DNA from: Gymnopus androsaceus JB14
Lineage: Eukaryota > Basidiomycota > Agaricomycetes > Agaricales > Omphalotaceae
Reading direction: 5' to 3'
Assembly: GCA_009733575.1 (NCBI GenBank)
Contig: ML769441.1
Location: 211,247-275,246, forward strand
Length of the DNA stretch: 64,000 nt
In this document: one piece after another, positions 33,095 to 60,633 of the stretch
How the letters are laid out: each line of letters begins with the position of its first letter
Numbering within the stretch: position 1 is the first letter of the stretch
Translations under genes and position numbers: made by a program
The notes under the pieces: model-generated
The model's database searches: none
What the model saw: the letters and a program-made list of their open reading frames with translations, nothing else
Told to the model about the DNA's origin: nothing

Positions 33095-35282
33095 TCAATC
33101 CTCGATGAGGTCCCTGTCTTCCTCATCCTCTTGAATCTCAACATCCTCCTTGTCCAATTCATTTCTAACAGCATATTCCAGAGGATCATCATCAGGCGCT
33201 AACCTTAAGTTTGGAATTGCATCAAACACAAAGTCTTCACCCTTATAAACATCCTCATCTTTCTCTTCCCTGTCAGCCATATCCTCTAGCTGATCCATAT
33301 TCATATCAATGAGATCCTCAATCTCCTCTGGTAGTACAATTGGCTCATACCTTGGTACATGTGGCAGTACCCTGAAAGCACCAACTTTACCTTTGAGTAC
33401 AGTCCCATCCATCTCCGCTACTATATATGAACCACCTCTGGTTCGTTGTATGACTACTAGTGGCCCAAGATACCTCGGATACATCTTTCTGTCCAAGTCC
33501 TTCTCAATCAAAGTATGTCGCACTTGTACCAACGTTCCAGGCTTAAAATCCCAATCTTTAATCGTATGTCTATATTTCCTCTCATACTCCTTCAGTTCTC
33601 TTCTCTTGTTCTCATTGATTCCATTCCTCATGCGCTCAATGAAGGTTCTATGCTTCGACAACGCTTGAGCTCTAAAGCCAATTAATTCTTCTCGTGTCAA
33701 AACCCTGTTTGGCGGATTAACCAAATAGGTTGACTCGACAATATCAAACGGCAACATAGGTTCAGCACCAGTGACAATGAAGTATGGCGAACAACCAAAT
33801 CCATGCCTGGCTGTTATACGGTCTGCCCAAAGTATGTGTTTGAGAAAGAACAACCACTTTCCAATGTCGCCACTGGTTGCTTTCACCAATGCTTGACGTA
33901 TGTCAAAGTGGGCCCTCTCAATCTTACCATTTCCTTGAGAGTTATACGGAGAGATTCTAATGCCTCTGATCCCATACTTGCTTTCCAGCCACTTTAGCAT
34001 TGTCTTCATCTGTGGTGCATTATCTGTAACGACTTCCTCTGGACATCCCCATCTACAGATGACGTCCTCAAAAAACCATTTGCCTAGGTTTTTAGCATTA
34101 TCCTGGTGCATAGCTCTCCCTTCTGACCAAGATGAAAGTGAGTCACGGCCATGCACAATATACCTGCAACCATTACTTTTCGGCGACATCAGCATCACAT
34201 TGACGTGCACCTTCTGAAATAGCGACGGAGTGTATGTGACTGATGGTGGGATTTGAATCATCCTCAATTGCCGATTCTGGCATGCAACGCAGGAGCTGAC
34301 AGACCAATTTACATCTTTCTCTAGGTCTGGCCACCAAAATTGTTTTTCAATAAAGTCCAATGTTGCATAGACACCTTTATGACCAAGGCTGTCATGCGTG
34401 CAATGCAAGATATACATCCTTTTCTCTCTTTCAATGACTAACTGAGGTAAATCAGGCATTTCCTTTCTTTGCCGATACAGCCTGTCCTCATCATCTAACT
34501 TGAATGTTTCTGCTGACTTGTTCAAGAATTCGATTTCCTTTGCCGTAAGACCAGCATACGCCTCGTCCAATTTTAGCGCAAGCTTAAGTTTGATGCATGG
34601 TAAAAGCTGATCTAACCTGTTCCCAGCCTCTGAACAATACTTGTCTGCATAAGGGTTCTCGCTGTTCCACTGCTTGTCTGTCATTGGAATCATTACTTCC
34701 TGCTGAAAGAGTGAGATAGGAACTTTGCCCTCATCAATTTTAACATCCCTCTTAAATTCAAACTGCCTTTCTTCATCAATGTAGCCCTGCAGATCATCTT
34801 CGATATCTAAGGCATCTAATGCAACCTCAGAAAGGTATCCACTTCTTGGATCAATATCATGTTTAAATTCTTCAAAATCCAGTGGGGCACCTTTAGCACC
34901 TTCTGCTATACTGAATTCCAAAGGATCACCATCATTGACGTCTACATAGTCATCAGGATTAATTGGTGATCTTGGCGGTTGCCAACCTCCTGGAGGCCTT
35001 GGTGACAAACCGTCAGGCCCATGAAGTATCCCTTTTATGTGTACTAGAGCGAAATGGAATTTCCTTATATCCTCAATCCACCTGTTGATAGTCGCGTTTG
35101 GGCCCGCACTGGGGTAATCAAGCATTCCCTTCACATAACTGGCATCCGTCTCAACTGTCAGTCTTCGACAGCTATATACGTAATAATAACTTGCCTCCAA
35201 GGCCAACTTTAGACCATAGAGTTCCCTTTTTGATTGCGAGAACCTAGCTTCTCTTTCATTCAGTGTGATTGATCCGAAATAA
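33095..35282 (-). pseudogene. Pol: RNase H and integrase
   Basis: Frame of 703 codons on the minus strand. It starts within RNase H (LTVETDASYVKGMLD, then FHFALVHIKGILHGPDGLS), followed by an HHCC zinc domain (HCTHDSLGHKG...CVACQ), the integrase core (VHVNVMLMSP, GRDSLSSWSEG, VTDNAPQ, YNSQGNGKIERAH) and the post-core box RYLGPLVVIQRTRGGSY with an acidic C-terminus. The first catalytic Asp, expected in VHVDVMLM of this family, is Asn here (34199-34201); the change GTC GAT to GTC AAT is a CpG transition. The second Asp and the Glu are kept. A frameshift near 35285 separates it from RT. Confidence 0.85.
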
Positions 35283-44799: not shown

Positions 44800-45204
44800 C
44801 ATCAGCAAAAACTGTTTTGGGCCCAGGAGGATCTAAGGTCACCTAGTTCTCTTAGGCAACCTGAGGCATCCTAGTTGGCCCAGGAAAAAGGGTAAAACTT
44901 TGGACACCTCAGGTATCCTAGTCATCCTAGGTGTCCTAGGAGATCCTGGGATGTCCTGGGGCATCCTGGGGCATTCTGAGGCATCCTGGGATGGAACTTT
45001 TATCCTAGGATGCCTCAGGATGCCCCAGGATACCCCAGGATACCCCAGGACATCCCAGGATCTCCTAGGACACCTAGGATGACTAGGATACCTGAGGTGT
45101 CCAAAGTTTTACCCTTTTTCCTGGGCCAACTAGGATGCCTCAGGTTGCCTAAGAGGACTAAGTGACCTTAGATCCTCCTGGGCCCAAAACAGTTTTTTCT
45201 GATG
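44800..45204. mobile_element. foldback element 1 (CCTAGG-rich)
   Basis: Ends CATCAGCAAAAACTG and CAGTTTTTTCTGATG; the two arms of about 190 bp are almost exact inverse complements through GGGCCCAGGAGGATCTAAGG, TTTGGACACCTCAGGTATCC and CTAGGAGATCCTGGGATG, meeting near 45000. TTGTT stands on both sides (left just before 44800, right from 45205), a possible 5-bp target duplication. The arms are built of degenerate 10-bp words such as CCTCAGGATG. Confidence 0.85.
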
Positions 45205-46045: not shown

Positions 46046-46277
46046 TTGCTGATGTATACATCTATTTTACTTACTTTTGCAATGTCATTACCCATCTGTG
46101 GATGCCTCCTAGCTGTCCACAGATGCCTCCTGCACTTATTTACCATTTATTCAGCCTGCTGGGTGCCTCCCACACTTGATATTCATCCATCAGGCCCTCC
46201 TGACATCTTACATAGCCTCCCTACAGTATATAACCAGACACCCCAACTTAATGTACTAGTCCTATAGTAATGTAAGA

Positions 46278-46351
46278 GGCATGGCGCCCATAGAAAGTTA
46301 TGACATAATCCCCGGGTTGGATAGCTGAGGCACCACGGGCCTGTTATAGCC
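46278..46351 (+). repeat. left inverted repeat of the DUF6589/helicase unit
   Basis: GCGCCCATAGAAAGTTATGA and the following 50 bases to CTGTTATAGCC are matched, inverted, by 52446-52519 with about 80 percent identity by eye. Confidence 0.75.
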
Positions 46352-46432
46352 GCTAGCATGTCAGAACACTTTGAACAACTCAACTTCCACATTGACAAAT
46401 AAATGATTGCATTTTGTGTAATTCTTTTCTGA

Positions 46433-49400
46433 ATGTCTTCCGGTAACTCTAGCAAGCCATATAAAGCAAGACCTCGTTTAAAATGGCTCACAGCAGCTGA
46501 TGCAAGTCCTGTTATTTCAGGCACATACTCTGACAGCTCTGACTACTCTATCTCGTCTTCTTCATTGCGATATCAACCTTATTCCACAATGAGAGCCTCC
46601 AGGAGTCCTCAGGACACTCCAGCACATCTTCCGATTGATGAGAATCATCCCAAAACTCATCATCCATCTCTCAGTATCACAATTCCCCAAATACCAACGT
46701 ACAGACTCAGTCCACCACCTCAGTCGGCATTGTTTGATCCCCAACACCTACTCTCTTCAGCATTTGTAATTCCTCCTCCTCCTATTCATGGGAGAACTTG
46801 GAAACTGAAGAGAACAGAGGACAAAATCCTACAGGAGAATCTGGATAACATTGCAGACACACTCAGACAGATAGGCTCAACATTCGGTAGTCTCCCAGGC
46901 CATTGAGATACTGTTGTTAGACTGCTTTCTGGATGTAACAACATCAAAGTAGCTCGCATTATTGATGCTATATACAACCATTGCAGTGCTCAGCCTTCGT
47001 GGCAATCTCCCTGTGTTAATGAACAAGATTCTGCCTTTTCCCTTACTATACATCCAACTTCTATCAATTTTGCACATCCATCAATGAAGGCTTGGGCTGC
47101 TCAGCTCTGTGCTGTTCAGGCTCATCAAGATATCAAGACTCTGACACGCAATGATCCCGACCATCCCGAATACACTCCTGCTGTAACGAACAGTGGCTAC
47201 ATTCCGAGCATGTACCGTCTTCCTCTACAACTTTTTTGAGCATGTATCTGTCCCTCATAAGGATGGAAAGCCAGTCCAGCGCGTTAGAAGACCTCGCGAG
47301 ATGTGTATCATTGCGTCCCTTACTCCCATTGTCAATGGGCATAATATACGTGTCAATGGATACTTCTCCATGGCATTTGGTATTCATCTCTTCAGTGGTC
47401 AGGCTCATACAGATATCAAGTGACTTGCATCACAAATTGGACTTGCCGTTCATGACACAACTGTTTGTTGCGCCATTAAAGCAATGACTGAAAAGGCACA
47501 GGTTGAAATGAAGGAAATTGCTGCAAAGGCTGCTGAAAATGACAATGTAGCTCAGGCTCTAGCTTTAGACAATTGCCAACAACACACTTCAGTCTACGAG
47601 GGTGGTGTTTTATGAAAAAGTAGCATGAAAACAGGAACATATGGCTGCTCAATTGTCTTTCAGGGTGTTCTACCAGGCACATGGAACCTAAAAGATCATC
47701 TTACCCATGTCATAGCCAACGAGCGCTTGAGCATGACAGTGGAGTCACTGTGGAAGGATATTGATTGGGTTCATTTTAATGACAGCATGGAATTACTCTG
47801 TATCCAAACCCTTGCTGAAGAGATCTCTGTTCTCTTGTCCCATGTGAAGACTGTATCCAAACAGTTTCGCACTGCACCTATGGCGATACATCATATTCCC
47901 AATGATCATTGGATGTCTATTCAACCTCTTGGATGCAATTCCGAGAATGAGCTATCAACTCAAGGGATGAAACGGGCTATCAATGATTTCAACAGTCAAA
48001 TTGGATATCTGGAAGAAGCTGCAGAGATGCTCATAGAGTGGGTTGGAGGAGACAGTGGATCTCACGAGTCTACCGAGAGAGTCAAGAAAGTATTAGCTCC
48101 GACTGTGCTTTCAAACCGTGATACCCATCAAAAATCTTGACACCAGAGGCTTGGCACATTAAAAGTACAGCCATCCAAACCATATTGGAGACTCACTTTG
48201 GACCAACCAATAGCTCTGATCCCTCCTCACTTTCAAAAATATTCCACCTTGTTGGTTTAAAACGGCCAGCCAATCTGAAAAAAGTTGACTTTTATCCCAT
48301 GGTTCATGGCTTTAAACTCACCTGGAAAGTAATGATTCTTGACTGTTGGTGGTAAGCTAATTTCGTTACTGATATGCATTTGCTCATTTATTTTTCCAGA
48401 GTCCTTCTCGAAACTGACGACTTGGAGGCCTACTTCAATGACCATGCAGATAATGGTACACTGCCCACTTTTCACTGCTTAATGCTTACTGCAGGGATTC
48501 TTGTTCAACAATATGTCTCATCTTCTGCTTACAAGCGTGTATTATCTGCTGATACTCAAGACAAGGTAGCACAGATAAATCCCGCACTAGTAGTGAAGAC
48601 AGGTAGTCCTTGGATTGCTCCTTTGTGTGTGGCATCGAAGGAGCAGATTGTGCAAGGGGAAGCTGAGGAGGTTGCTTGTGATCCTGATGAATTTGATGGT
48701 GATTGTACACTTGCAAACACCATAGTATACAAGTTGCAATTTGGTTTGTGGCTCTTATTGGATGACGCTATCAAGAGTGGAGATGTAAGATGTGTAATGC
48801 AGCTGCTCAATGTAAGTTCTCAGTTCAATTCATTGCCATGTTATTTATCAGTTATATAGATCTGGATTTTCTGGTTTGCTGGTTCCAAGCACCCCAAGTA
48901 TACAACTTATCTTCTTGAGCTTCACTGTCTCCTCAAATACAAGTCTTCTCCTGCTCTTCAAACTGCAATTCTCAATAACTACCTTGTGAAATTTGGTTTT
49001 GAAGCACAGGAGCGTGACCTCATGATTGAACACCATGTATTCAAACTTGAAGAGATGGTATCAAGGGCCAATGGCAAGTTTGATGGACCTTTCTACGGGG
49101 ATATCATTGCACCTAACGTCAACAACATGACCCATCTCAACCACTCTCTCACATCTGCTTTTGCCCTCGGTATACATAAAAACAGTCATACCAAACCAGT
49201 TATGAGCCCCGAACTCAAGATAGCAATGGGAGAATTCAAGGCAGTGGAAATGCATTCCTTCTGCTCTACACAAAGCTACAACTATATTTCACAACTTGGT
49301 TTATCTAAAGGCTATTCAAAGCTAGGTCCTGGTGGAAAACTCGCTTCATTTATTATTGATACATCAAGGAAAGCTAGATTTGCTCAAGTGATTGAAGATG

Positions 49401-49705
49401 AAAAGAATTGTATTGCAGCTGGGGATATTCCTATGGAAACCATTCATTCACCATCATCCTGTATACCTTCATCACCACCTCCTTCACATCCTGCATCTGA
49501 CATGGAGCCAACGGACTCAACTTCTTCAGACTTGTCTGATTCATCTGATTCATCTGATTCCGAGTCATTTAATTCCGACAAAAATCCCATTATTCTGGCT
49601 TTCAAAAACCCGATGTCAGACAATAGTGAAACGGAGAGCAAGAAGGATGATGAAGAAATGGCAGCAGCAGCAGAAAGCGACAACAAAGACAAGTGGTCAG
49701 ATTAG
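46433..49705 (+). pseudogene. DUF6589-type protein, broken
   Basis: ATG at 46433 (MSSGNSSKPYKARPRLKWL). After a Ser/Pro-rich start and a helix, the typical blocks of the agaric DUF6589 family follow in order: TLTRNDPDHPEY, ASLTPIVNGHNIRVNGYF, ALDNCQQHTSVYEGG, LTHVIANERLSMTVESLW, STQGMKRAINDFNSQIGYL, MLIEWVGGDSGSHES, then HIKSTAIQTILETHFGPTNS, LKRPANLKKVDFYPMVHGF, an Asp/Glu patch, FDGPFYGDIIAPNVNNMTHL and an acidic Ser-rich end. Stops (TGA at 46904-46906, about 47237 and 47421, TGA near 47614) and shifts break it. The DN and GGD boxes with a later Glu could be a DDE-type triad; this is inference. Convergent with the helicase gene. Confidence 0.6.
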
Positions 49706-49734
49706 AGATCAAGATTTAAGGTAATGTGCTTTAC

Positions 49735-52359
49735 CTAGTGACAGACTCTTTTTGTTCTGACTGGCCCCATCTCTGCTAAAACAGATAACAGACTAGGTTG
49801 TGCTCCATGAGACTTTGGTGCCACCTTCTTTGTTGTTTGTTGCACTGCAACCACTGGAAGATTTGTTGTATTGTTGAGATGTGAGGCTGTTGGTGAAGGA
49901 GGTAATGCAGGCAAAGATGGTCTAGAGATTGGAGGAGATGATATGGGGGAATAATCGTTGGGCTCAGGACTCTCCAATGCATAGCATGTCTGTGCTTTAG
50001 GTTTTGAAGCCTTTCTCTTCTCTACTTCTTTTGCTTTCTTCTCTCAATCTTTTTCCTCTTTCTCTTCCTTTTGCTTCTTCTGTATATCAACCTGAAAATC
50101 TGAGAGCAGCCTCCAAAGAAATGTTGAATTTGACTCATAATCCCAAGAATGCGCAGTGAGAATAGTTATGAGTGCATCTTTGCTGTCAATGATGAGGAAT
50201 TTATTAAGTATTTATAAGAGAGTCAGGGAGGAAGAAAGCAATGGGATAGTTGGAAAGATGAGGGTTCAAGGGCTCAATTTTGCTCCAAATCAGCTGCTGG
50301 AAGTCAACAAGCCATACGCGCATGCTTGCACGCTCCGCTTTACCCAGCCACTTTGCCAATTTGCATTTTGATAGCTTTGCAGGTGCTACAGTTGTTGGGA
50401 GCCATTTGAGTGGTGCATCTGCTGGTGCAGTGAACAGGTAGTTCTTGTGAGAGCAAGCGGCACACAGTGCGCAGAATACAGCATGACCTGCAGCTGCACA
50501 CTCCAAATGTAATGTCTCCTCCAGTGGATTGCCATAGTGGAGGTTGAGGTGAGCTGTATAGCATCAATCCTCCATGAGAAATAAAGCAACTGAAAGAGCC
50601 ATGGACTCTGTTTAATCCTTCTTCTTCTTGGTTTTCTTTTTCGATTTTGCTGTAGTCATGTCAATTGATTCACCTGTGAAAGTGTCAGAGATATTAAATT
50701 GTTGAGATGAGAATATACTGCACCTTCAACTGTTGCCTTTGCTCCTTGTAATGTCCTCGCTGGTATCAGTACTAACATACGGCAGAGCATGTCCGGGCTC
50801 CGCCCTGAGCACCCAGCACCTTGAACAAAGCCATTCAATGAAGAGGGGAAATGGTAGAAGATGCTATCCAGCACCTTGCAACGGTTTATTCCCTGCCTGA
50901 TAGCTGGTGTACCAATGACAACCTGGAGATATGGATCCAAGTCAATGCAGTCAAACATTTCCTTGTTATAGGCATCTAGGCAGACACTGTGATACATCCA
51001 TATGCAACAAAGACAGAGGTATTGCTGTGGAATGTGATCCCACAGGTACTCAAATATAACATAGGCTTCAGGGATGGTGCTGACATGAATTATGGTCTTG
51101 CGACTGCTACAAAGAATCTCAAGGATAGGCGCATACTTCGAGACACCCTGCTTGCTCTTCATTGGTTGTATACTGATCTGCATATTTGTTCTTTCATTTG
51201 AGCAATGTTGGAGGTTGTATGAGAGACCTGACATGCCCAAAGCAGTGCATAGGCATCAGGAAAAATGGTCTGGGCCCAGGATGACCCCAGGTCACTTAGG
51301 CAGCCTAGGCCACCTAGGAATAATGCAAAAACTTCGGACACCTCAGGTATCCTAGGCCTCCTAGGCCTCCTAAGCCTCCTAAGCCTCCTAGGAATTCTGA
51401 GGGTATCCTCAGGTTGCCTCAGGTTGCCTCAGGTTGCCTCAGGTTGCCTCAGGTTGCCCCAGGATGCCTCAGAACAGCCCAGGACAGCTCAGGATGGTCC
51501 CCAGAATGCCTAGGAGGCCTAAGATGCCTAGGATACCTGAGGTGTCCAAAGTTTTTGCATTATTCCTAGGTGGCCTAGGCTGCCTAAGTGACCTGGGGTC
51601 ATCCTAGACCCAGACCATTTTTCCTGATGTAATGCACACGTTTCAGTGCCGGAAGCACAAGTAGCTGTCGTGACAACAACTGGTATGGCAGCAGGAAGGC
51701 AGCCTTTGATGAAGGCACCAATGTGTTCAAACTGTGGTCGGAAACCACTGGATCCCCAGGATCCGATGAGGTGAGATTTGTCAACAACAAATTCAGTGAG
51801 ATTGGAACAAAACATTTCATGATATATTATGTGGCACCATTCAGGTGAAGCAAGGTGCTCTGGATCTACACATATGAGGCTCCAGCTTCTGCATTTGCAT
51901 ATCAGAGCCTCTAAATTGATTTGGTCAATACAGTACTCCGAGATATGTTCATGGCAATATGAAAATCCTGAGATGCCAAATGCTTCAGCTTCAGCAATCT
52001 ATAATGAAGAAGTAATGAGCTACAAAGCAGTTGAGGAATAACACAGTATGCACAAGACTTGTAGGTAGCCCCTTCGTTGGTGTGATCACCATGACTACTG
52101 GTTGACTTTTAACCAAAAATGCAGGATACATTGCAGGATGTGTCGAAATTTCAAGATGAGCAAGGATTGGAACAATGAACAGAGCTGATTTTCCATCTCC
52201 TGTCACTGTGAATGCGACAAGGTGCTGGCCATCCAGGACAAGAGGAATCCAATCACTTTGGAAATTGTGAAGACCATCCTTCCATTGCAGTATCCATGTT
52301 GAGACAACTCTACTTAGAGTGGTAAGACCTTCCCGAGATGTCCATTTGAGTTCAGACAT
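49735..52359 (-). pseudogene. RecQ-like DNA helicase, broken
   Basis: Starts near 52359 (MSELKWTSREGLTTLS). Walker A TGDGKSALF, motif Ia VVMVITPTKGL, motif II position DKSH in place of DEAH (FVVDKSHLIGSWGSSGFRP), motif III VVTTATCASGTET; then foldback element 2; then HCSNERTNMQISIQP, motif IV RKTIIHVSTI, motif V QVVIGTPAIRQGINR, motif VI degenerate (FVQGAGCSGRSPD), and a basic end (KKKTKKKKD) near 50625. A further module (50506-49735: AACSHKNYLFTAPADAP, KAERASMRVWLVDFQQLIW, Lys/Glu-rich linker with TGA at 50044-50046, Pro-rich end) is typical of the C-terminus of these agaric helicases. The DEAH loss, insertion and shifts make it inactive. Confidence 0.75.
51254..51629. mobile_element. foldback element 2, inside the helicase
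   Basis: Ends CATCAGGAAAAATGGTCTGG and its inverse complement, arms rich in CCTAGG with TTTGGACACCTCAGG-type words shared with element 1. The centre has five copies of the 10-bp word AGGTTGCCTC and CCTCCTAGG/CCTCCTAAG repeats. It sits between helicase motifs III and IV. Confidence 0.85.
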
Positions 52360-52445
52360 GTTTGAGAGACATAGAATAATGAAATTAAGGTGAATGAGAA
52401 TGAAGTATTGAAGTAGTGGTAGAAAAATATGGCGAAGCTGGCCAT

Positions 52446-52519
52446 GGCTATAACGGGCCTGCAGTCCCTCAGTTATCCGACCCGGCGATTATGGCATAAC
52501 TTTCTATGGGTGCAATGCC
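52446..52519 (-). repeat. right inverted repeat of the DUF6589/helicase unit
   Basis: CATAACTTTCTATGGGTGCA and the adjacent 50 bases are the inverse complement of 46278-46351. Lies about 90 bp upstream of the helicase start. Flanking duplication could not be fixed. Confidence 0.75.
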
Positions 52520-53418
52520 CTATATGTTAGTTCCAGACTCCACATGGAACAGGGAACATTGTCGGAGTCTGGTTTTCGAGGCTATTAATGTACCCCAGTC
52601 TGTTATTACCACTGTCTACCATTGTTACCATTTCCATTCCATTTTCTGTCTATCTCTGTCTCTGTTTCTTCTACTGTATCAATACAACCAAGTGTTTGTG
52701 TTACTGTAACATTGACCCCTCGAACTTTGCAATCTTGAAAACCATAACATGTTATATTGACATGCAAACTATGTATCTGGTGTAACGCCACAGGGCTAAA
52801 GTAGGTATGTACACATTTTATATTCTGTGGGATACGGAAGAGTGATTTGCCATGTTTGTGCTTTCTTTTGTAGCAGTAGACCAACTACATGTAGCCATGG
52901 TAGTGAAAAATTGGAGATGTAACTGGTTTGAAAAATTGCCTACCTGCGGCGTAAACTTTTGATCTGACACCATAACACATCACACAGCCCTAGGAACTTT
53001 TAATTTAAAAGTTTGCACCATAATGTGTAACATTCTGCAAACACTTGGTCATATCAATACAGTCTTCTGACCTTCCAAGTTCTGCTTGAAGGCTCACTGT
53101 CATCTGCATCAAATGCAAGACTTTTTCCATAGATCCTATATCTATGTCTGAAGCTCACTGTCTCTCATATCTTGTGCTGGGCTTTGTCTGTGGATCCTAT
53201 ATTTACATCCAATGATCCAAAGCTCCCTGGTAGCTTCTATTTGGGTTTCACTACTTCTAAAACACCTCGGGTATCACTTGGTTCTTTCCCTTCCATCCAC
53301 TTCCACCCTATTCCATGTCATAGCTAATTTTGGCAGGGAAAAAACAAAAATCTTAATGCCACTGCAATGGAGCCCAAACTCACTTAAATGGTAGTTAAAT
53401 AAGCCTTTTATAGGATAA
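52520..53418. other. AT-rich spacer, no gene seen
   Basis: Contains a short inverted repeat CCAGACTCC...GGAGTCTGG (52533-52575) close to the right inverted repeat. No ORF with a credible splice pattern. Confidence 0.4.
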
Positions 53419-59948: not shown

Positions 59949-60633
59949 TAACTGAAGTAGTTGGTAAGCCACTAGGAATAATCATTAGAATCAGAAACCA
60001 ATTGTGAATCGAGATAACCTACCTCGACCGGGAATGTCGTTGCATGAACGATAACACGCTTGATGTCTGCCAAATCCTCATGTTGCTCAAGAGCCTGCAC
60101 AATAGTTAGAATAACGGTCACAAGCTAAGACTAAAATACATACCCTCTGCATCAATCCAGCTTTCTCGCAAAGGTTGGTGATCCGTGGACGGTCGTAGTG
60201 CGTGAACATCTCATTGCCAAGGATAGCATCCGCGACTTGTGGGGCGTGCATGAGATTCATCTCCAGCACACGGGTTTGGAGTGGGCCTTGCTCGGGTTTG
60301 TTGTCCTTTAATGCATCGAGGAGGAAAGACGTCGCAAGCTGAATCATGTTTTGGGACATGAAGATATTGACGACGCGTTCTACATCAACCATAGGTCCCG
60401 CTTCGTCGTTGACAAGCTGCGAGGCGAATTCAGCACCCTTCTCGGGGTTGACACGCACAACATGCTGCAAGAGAGCAACATAGTCCGGACTGTAGCCAAC
60501 TTTTTTGGCGTGCAAAACAATCTTCTCAATTTGCCCAGTCTCAGCAAAGCAGAAGGCGTCCTGGACAAAGTAAAGAGAAAGCAGCCCGTTGATAGATCCT
60601 GCAAGTTGCTTCAAAACAGAAGACGTGGAATTC
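59949..60633 (-). pseudogene. CHC1: clathrin heavy chain fragment, duplicated copy
   Basis: Minus strand. One exon (about 60570-60147) encodes [60 protein letters not shown] and CEKAGLMQR, then an intron and [22 protein letters not shown], a second intron and WLTNYFS, where homology stops at 59949. Identity to the second copy at 62251-63077 is very high across exons and introns; this copy is the better preserved, keeping HYDRPRI and the EQGPLQTR segment in frame. No N-terminal propeller and no downstream legs are attached, so it cannot make a protein. Confidence 0.85.

Follow-up and report, generated by a model that had tools for sequence, protein, structure and literature searches.

A decayed DNA transposon in Gymnopus androsaceus, probably of AcademH type, with a DUF6589 gene and a convergent RecQ-like helicase gene

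We analyzed a 64,000-nucleotide stretch of the genome of the mushroom Gymnopus androsaceus JB14 (hereafter the window; contig ML769441.1 of assembly GCA_009733575.1, forward-strand positions 211,247–275,246), in which two convergent genes lie between a pair of inverted repeats. Pfam searches found the DUF6589 domain (PF20231) as three pieces on the plus strand (E = 1.1e-16, 7.8e-11 and 1.4e-6), the larger match being interrupted by TAG and TAA stops, and pieces of a DEAD/RecQ-like helicase on the minus strand (DEAD, E = 1.9e-7). The repeats are 74 nt each, 85% complementary and spaced 6,094 nt apart. A first-pass annotation had described this arrangement from the letters alone, and both the repeats and the enclosed gene pair proved to be present, the genes in broken form.

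The limits of the unit emerged from a site that lacks it. A single site without the element, C361 in the 83.3-Mb assembly (934 contigs) that we searched, matches both flanks, the left as far as 46256 and the right beginning at 52585, and the two flanks joined with a single TTAATGTAC align to this site with 189 of 194 positions identical, five mismatches and no gap. TTAATGTAC stands on both sides of the unit in the window, and C361 carries a single copy, reading TTCATGTAC. Because the flanks join at C361 with one copy of the duplication, we place the element at 46257–52584 (6,328 bp), starting with TAGTCC and finishing with GGCTA (reverse complement TAGCC), with TTAATGTAC as its 9-bp target-site duplication, a length that comes from this one insertion. 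The real ends are 21 bp further out than the 74-nt repeats on the left and 65 bp on the right, and the repeats are therefore subterminal; the first-pass annotation, which had taken them for the ends of the unit, was right about the repeats and wrong about the termini. It had also called for a search for target duplications and empty sites, and with both in hand its idea of a mobile unit holds: the unit was mobile in the past.

The sequence into which the element inserted is itself a repeat, to which 39 of the 40 matches listed (the window included) belong, from a search in which 40 of 210 candidates were scored. Because this target is multicopy, C361 is a related empty site rather than this very locus in a different strain. 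The element is likewise absent from further copies of the target repeat (L038–L044, L048–L050, L060 and L061), whose alignments run through the site; several have small gaps, and in L038 a gap of 4 bases falls at the insertion site. The repeat, which occupies 46154–46256 and 52588–52640 in the window and has a TATA-like CAGTATATAA, may be part of a long terminal repeat (LTR) or of another mobile element.

Could two unrelated miniature inverted-repeat transposable elements (MITEs) simply flank two host genes by chance? Other inverted-repeat elements do exist in this genome, among them an insert nested in the helicase gene and repeats at the DUF6589 locus C67 (both described below). Against such a coincidence, the 74-mer was found only towards the ends of two element copies, at three places or more (the count is a lower bound), namely the two in the window and C556:5111–5184, where a second copy has its right end; moreover, C361 lacks the whole unit, and the DUF6589–helicase pair recurs in the genome. 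The empty site and the genome search for the 74-mer refute the MITE explanation, which we consider exceedingly improbable.

The second copy, C556, is ~91.5% identical to the window element and has the same gene order, its left side being cut by the contig start; where the window element finishes in GGCTA, it has GACTA followed by GTATAACC. A partial third copy, C64, matches window positions 46746–48932 only, and the DNA retrieved on both sides of it had no match. Aligning window positions 47008–52587 (nested insert excluded) with C556 (L004) gave 304 transitions and 51 transversions in 5,176 aligned positions. A CpG in C556 corresponded to TG or CA in the window 113 times, versus 24 in the reverse direction; the window copy has thus lost more CpG, as would be expected from the decay of methylated DNA. 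With its stops, split frames, nested insert and a DKSH motif in its helicase, the window element is a decayed, inactive copy.

The first-pass annotation had suggested that conserved DN, GGD and later Glu motifs in DUF6589 might form a catalytic triad of RNase H type, and that predicting the structure of the domain would be a check. A D/D/E triad is conserved across the DUF6589 family and is present in the window, where the motifs fall in different frames and align with D199, D363 and E611 of a relative, P0092. The best fold matches of the predicted structure of P0092 were the hAT (Hermes) and P element transposases, at about 10–13% identity, a comparison that bears only on the groups of DDE transposases among the matches listed. 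For DUF6589, a transposase fold of RNase H type is thus very probable, and fold and triad together are well supported by prediction. A 157-aa open reading frame (ORF) upstream, perhaps the N-terminal part of the transposase, had no Pfam match. In two protein searches (34 of 34 and 120 of 161 hits listed; ~8,000 candidates scored in each), no animal was among the hits that bear an organism name, which some hits do not. In the first of them, a protein translated from the searched assembly (locus L015) was 96% identical, over 63% of its length, to one of G. androsaceus JB14, which agrees with a host that is this species or a near relative.

Table 1. Features of the element and its borders (window coordinates).
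Feature	Position	Strand	Basis or remark
Left target-site duplication, TTAATGTAC	46248–46256		Same as 52585–52593; one copy, TTCATGTAC, in C361
Left element end, starts TAGTCC	46257–46300	+	Boundary from empty site
Left subterminal inverted repeat	46278–46351	+	Repeat search; at least 3 places in genome
157-aa ORF, perhaps N-terminal part of transposase	46433–46906	+	Role suggested by position
First catalytic Asp candidate (LDN)	47568–47570	+	Aligns with D199 of P0092
DUF6589 (PF20231) putative transposase domain, broken pieces	47721–49189	+	Pfam matches
Second catalytic Asp candidate (WVGGD)	48051–48053	+	Aligns with D363 of P0092
Catalytic Glu candidate (MIEHH)	49028–49030	+	Aligns with E611 of P0092
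RecQ-like helicase gene, interrupted	50602–52359	-	Pfam; RecQ kinship via C556 copy
Nested inverted-repeat element, 376 bp, 127-nt arms	~51254–51629		Within helicase gene; without counterpart in C556
Right subterminal inverted repeat	52446–52519	-	Repeat search
Right element end, finishes GGCTA	52541–52584	-	Empty-site boundary; GACTA there in C556 copy
Right target-site duplication, TTAATGTAC	52585–52593		Empty site

The helicase gene retains a Walker A motif (TGDGKS, ~52203–52186), DKSH (~51782) where the C556 copy has DESH, and GAGCSGR (~50820). Its RecQ kinship is read from C556, whose intact frame of 339 aa passes the Pfam cut-off for Helicase_C but not for DEAD, and matches BLM, WRN, RecQ, RECQ1 and RECQ5 (35 distinct PDB sequences at E ≤ 0.01, the best at 4.2e-7). 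The alignment of the window with C556 breaks between 51251 and 51630, around the nested inverted-repeat element. A second copy of that element, ~70% alike, lies at 44800–45204 in the window; CCTAGG/CTCAGG-like motifs are abundant in both, and similar sequence is found at loci L022 and L024.

As the first-pass annotation had proposed, we looked for a neighboring helicase at DUF6589 loci throughout the genome. The PF20231 search (102 of 119 candidates scored) returned 115 matches, which clustered by strand, with gaps of at most 4 kb, into 59 DUF6589 loci, and two single-protein queries returned 52 helicase loci; both counts are lower bounds, and some loci lie at contig ends. A helicase match lay within 10 kb at 31 of the 59 loci, with the nearest on the opposite strand in 31 of 31; some of these partners are weak matches, with E values as high as 7.6e-4. 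The helicase was convergent and downstream at 29 loci, at 1.2–4.6 kb, as against a chance expectation for a downstream helicase of ~0.4 (59 × 10 kb of 83.3 Mb, × 52), and upstream of DUF6589 at two (C601 and C617). At the remaining 28 loci no helicase was detected within 10 kb. Conversely, 21 of the 52 helicase loci were not the nearest partner of any DUF6589 locus, although a distance of 10 kb or less separates two of them from such a locus: C203:59186, which shares its strand, and C40:51669.

The pairing extends to distant families. C136 and C67 have the gene order of the window, with helicase pieces 36% and 32% identical to the window's and under every Pfam cut-off. In the C136/C781/C40 family, C136 and C781 have flanking DNA in common, and C136 holds an apparent nested retroelement. 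A perfect 25-bp inverted repeat at C67 was considered for the ends of a second family and rejected, its right-hand sequence occurring at 31 places including itself, mostly as the repeat part only.

Taken together, these results make it highly likely that the window element is a decayed DNA transposon of AcademH type, with an RNase H-fold DDE transposase (DUF6589) and a convergent RecQ-like helicase. AcademH, in the Academ superfamily, was reportedly defined by Kojima in 2020 (Mob DNA 11:15). In published descriptions, AcademH elements have 9 or 10-bp duplications and a helicase, and AcademX elements 3 or 4 bp and a nuclease (PMC10045372); AcademH elements, which carry DEAD and Helicase_C domains, are present at low copy number in Basidiomycota, Ascomycota and Mucoromycota (PMC10799480); PF00270 and recQ_fam occur in fungal Academs, which annotation often takes for host genes (PMC6416283); and putative nonautonomous Academ insertions are described in the mushroom Marasmius oreades (PMC8290104). 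The first-pass annotation's 'new kind of DNA transposon' was therefore too strong; the element itself is most likely of a known kind, the AcademH lineage already described. Its probable membership in Academ is judged from the genes that it carries and the length of its duplication, compared by description and not by a tree.

An alternative reading is that DUF6589, compared here with Academ by description, founds a DDE superfamily of its own, apart from Academ. Its RecQ-like helicase would then have been taken up independently and its 9-bp staggered joint would be convergent, so that helicase-assisted transposition would have more than one origin and would drive the DUF6589 expansion in mushrooms. 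No relevant paper on DUF6589 or PF20231 came up in our literature search, the sole PF20231 match being an unrelated optics paper. We nevertheless judge this reading unlikely, since helicase, DDE-type enzyme and 9-bp duplication agree with AcademH on all three points.

Membership in Kolobok, for example as KolobokH, is quite unlikely in our view. Kolobok elements usually duplicate TTAA, and the 9-bp duplication of the window element does start with TTAA. Under a 4-bp TTAA duplication, however, the two ends would no longer be mirror images (TGTACTAG versus TAGCC), and five more bases would have to match by chance; moreover, GTATAACC, not TTAA, adjoins the corresponding right end in the C556 copy. 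If TTAA is the rule in Kolobok, the 9-bp duplication excludes it. KolobokH resembles the window element as a fungal DNA transposon encoding a RecQ helicase, and is reported from fungi only (PMC9587614). The window has its helicase gene on the strand opposite DUF6589, which counts against KolobokH, but gene order alone does not decide the matter, because a red-alga Kolobok (Kolobok-1_CCri) also has its helicase on the complementary strand (PMC9587614).

For an AcademH-type element, an intact DUF6589 transposase would recognize the inverted repeats, terminal and subterminal alike, excise the element, presumably by cut-and-paste, and attach it to a pair of target phosphates separated by 9 bp. Repair after this staggered joining would leave the 9-bp duplication. 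The convergent RecQ-like helicase may serve to unwind or process the DNA of the ends or of the joint.

Mushrooms have DUF6589 proteins in large numbers, under the label 'unknown function', and the window element suggests a function for this large, unexplained family. We did not find DUF6589 described as the transposase of such elements in a search that covered few subscription journals, and passages of PMC12210899, PMC10294476 and PMC9970103 added nothing on it. If DUF6589 proteins are transposases with a partner helicase, their puzzling expansion becomes transposon content, and some of the excess RecQ-like genes in mushroom genomes would be accounted for. The fold, the triad, the ends and the 9-bp joint would then offer clear material for the question of why certain DDE transposons of eukaryotes encode a helicase themselves.

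Elsewhere in the window, direct repeats at 59950–60774/62253–63079 (829 bp) and 24449–25005/41035–41591 (557 bp), 97% identical, are perhaps LTRs of nearby retroelements, and a 703-aa frame at 33098–35206 on the minus strand (Integrase_H2C2, E = 7.1e-15) is probably part of a retroelement.

Among known systems, the hAT (Hermes) and P element transposases have an RNase H core that is interrupted by a helical insertion ahead of the last Glu, and neither group is known to encode a helicase. hAT duplications are described as usually 8 bp, with 5, 6 and 7 also known; at 9 bp in the window, the likeness is in predicted fold only. Kyakuja and Zisupton (KDZ) are, like the window element, DNA transposons of Agaricomycotina, but they are described as having 7 and 8-bp duplications and, in many cases, TET/JBP partners in place of a helicase. 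KolobokH shares the RecQ helicase and differs in its TTAA duplication. AcademH, known here by description, has in common with the window element the DDE-type transposase (by the predicted structure of P0092 and the D/D/E residues in the window), the DEAD/RecQ-type helicase, the 9 or 10-bp duplication (TTAATGTAC) and its occurrence in Basidiomycota; among the features tested, the two show no difference, the window copy being broken.
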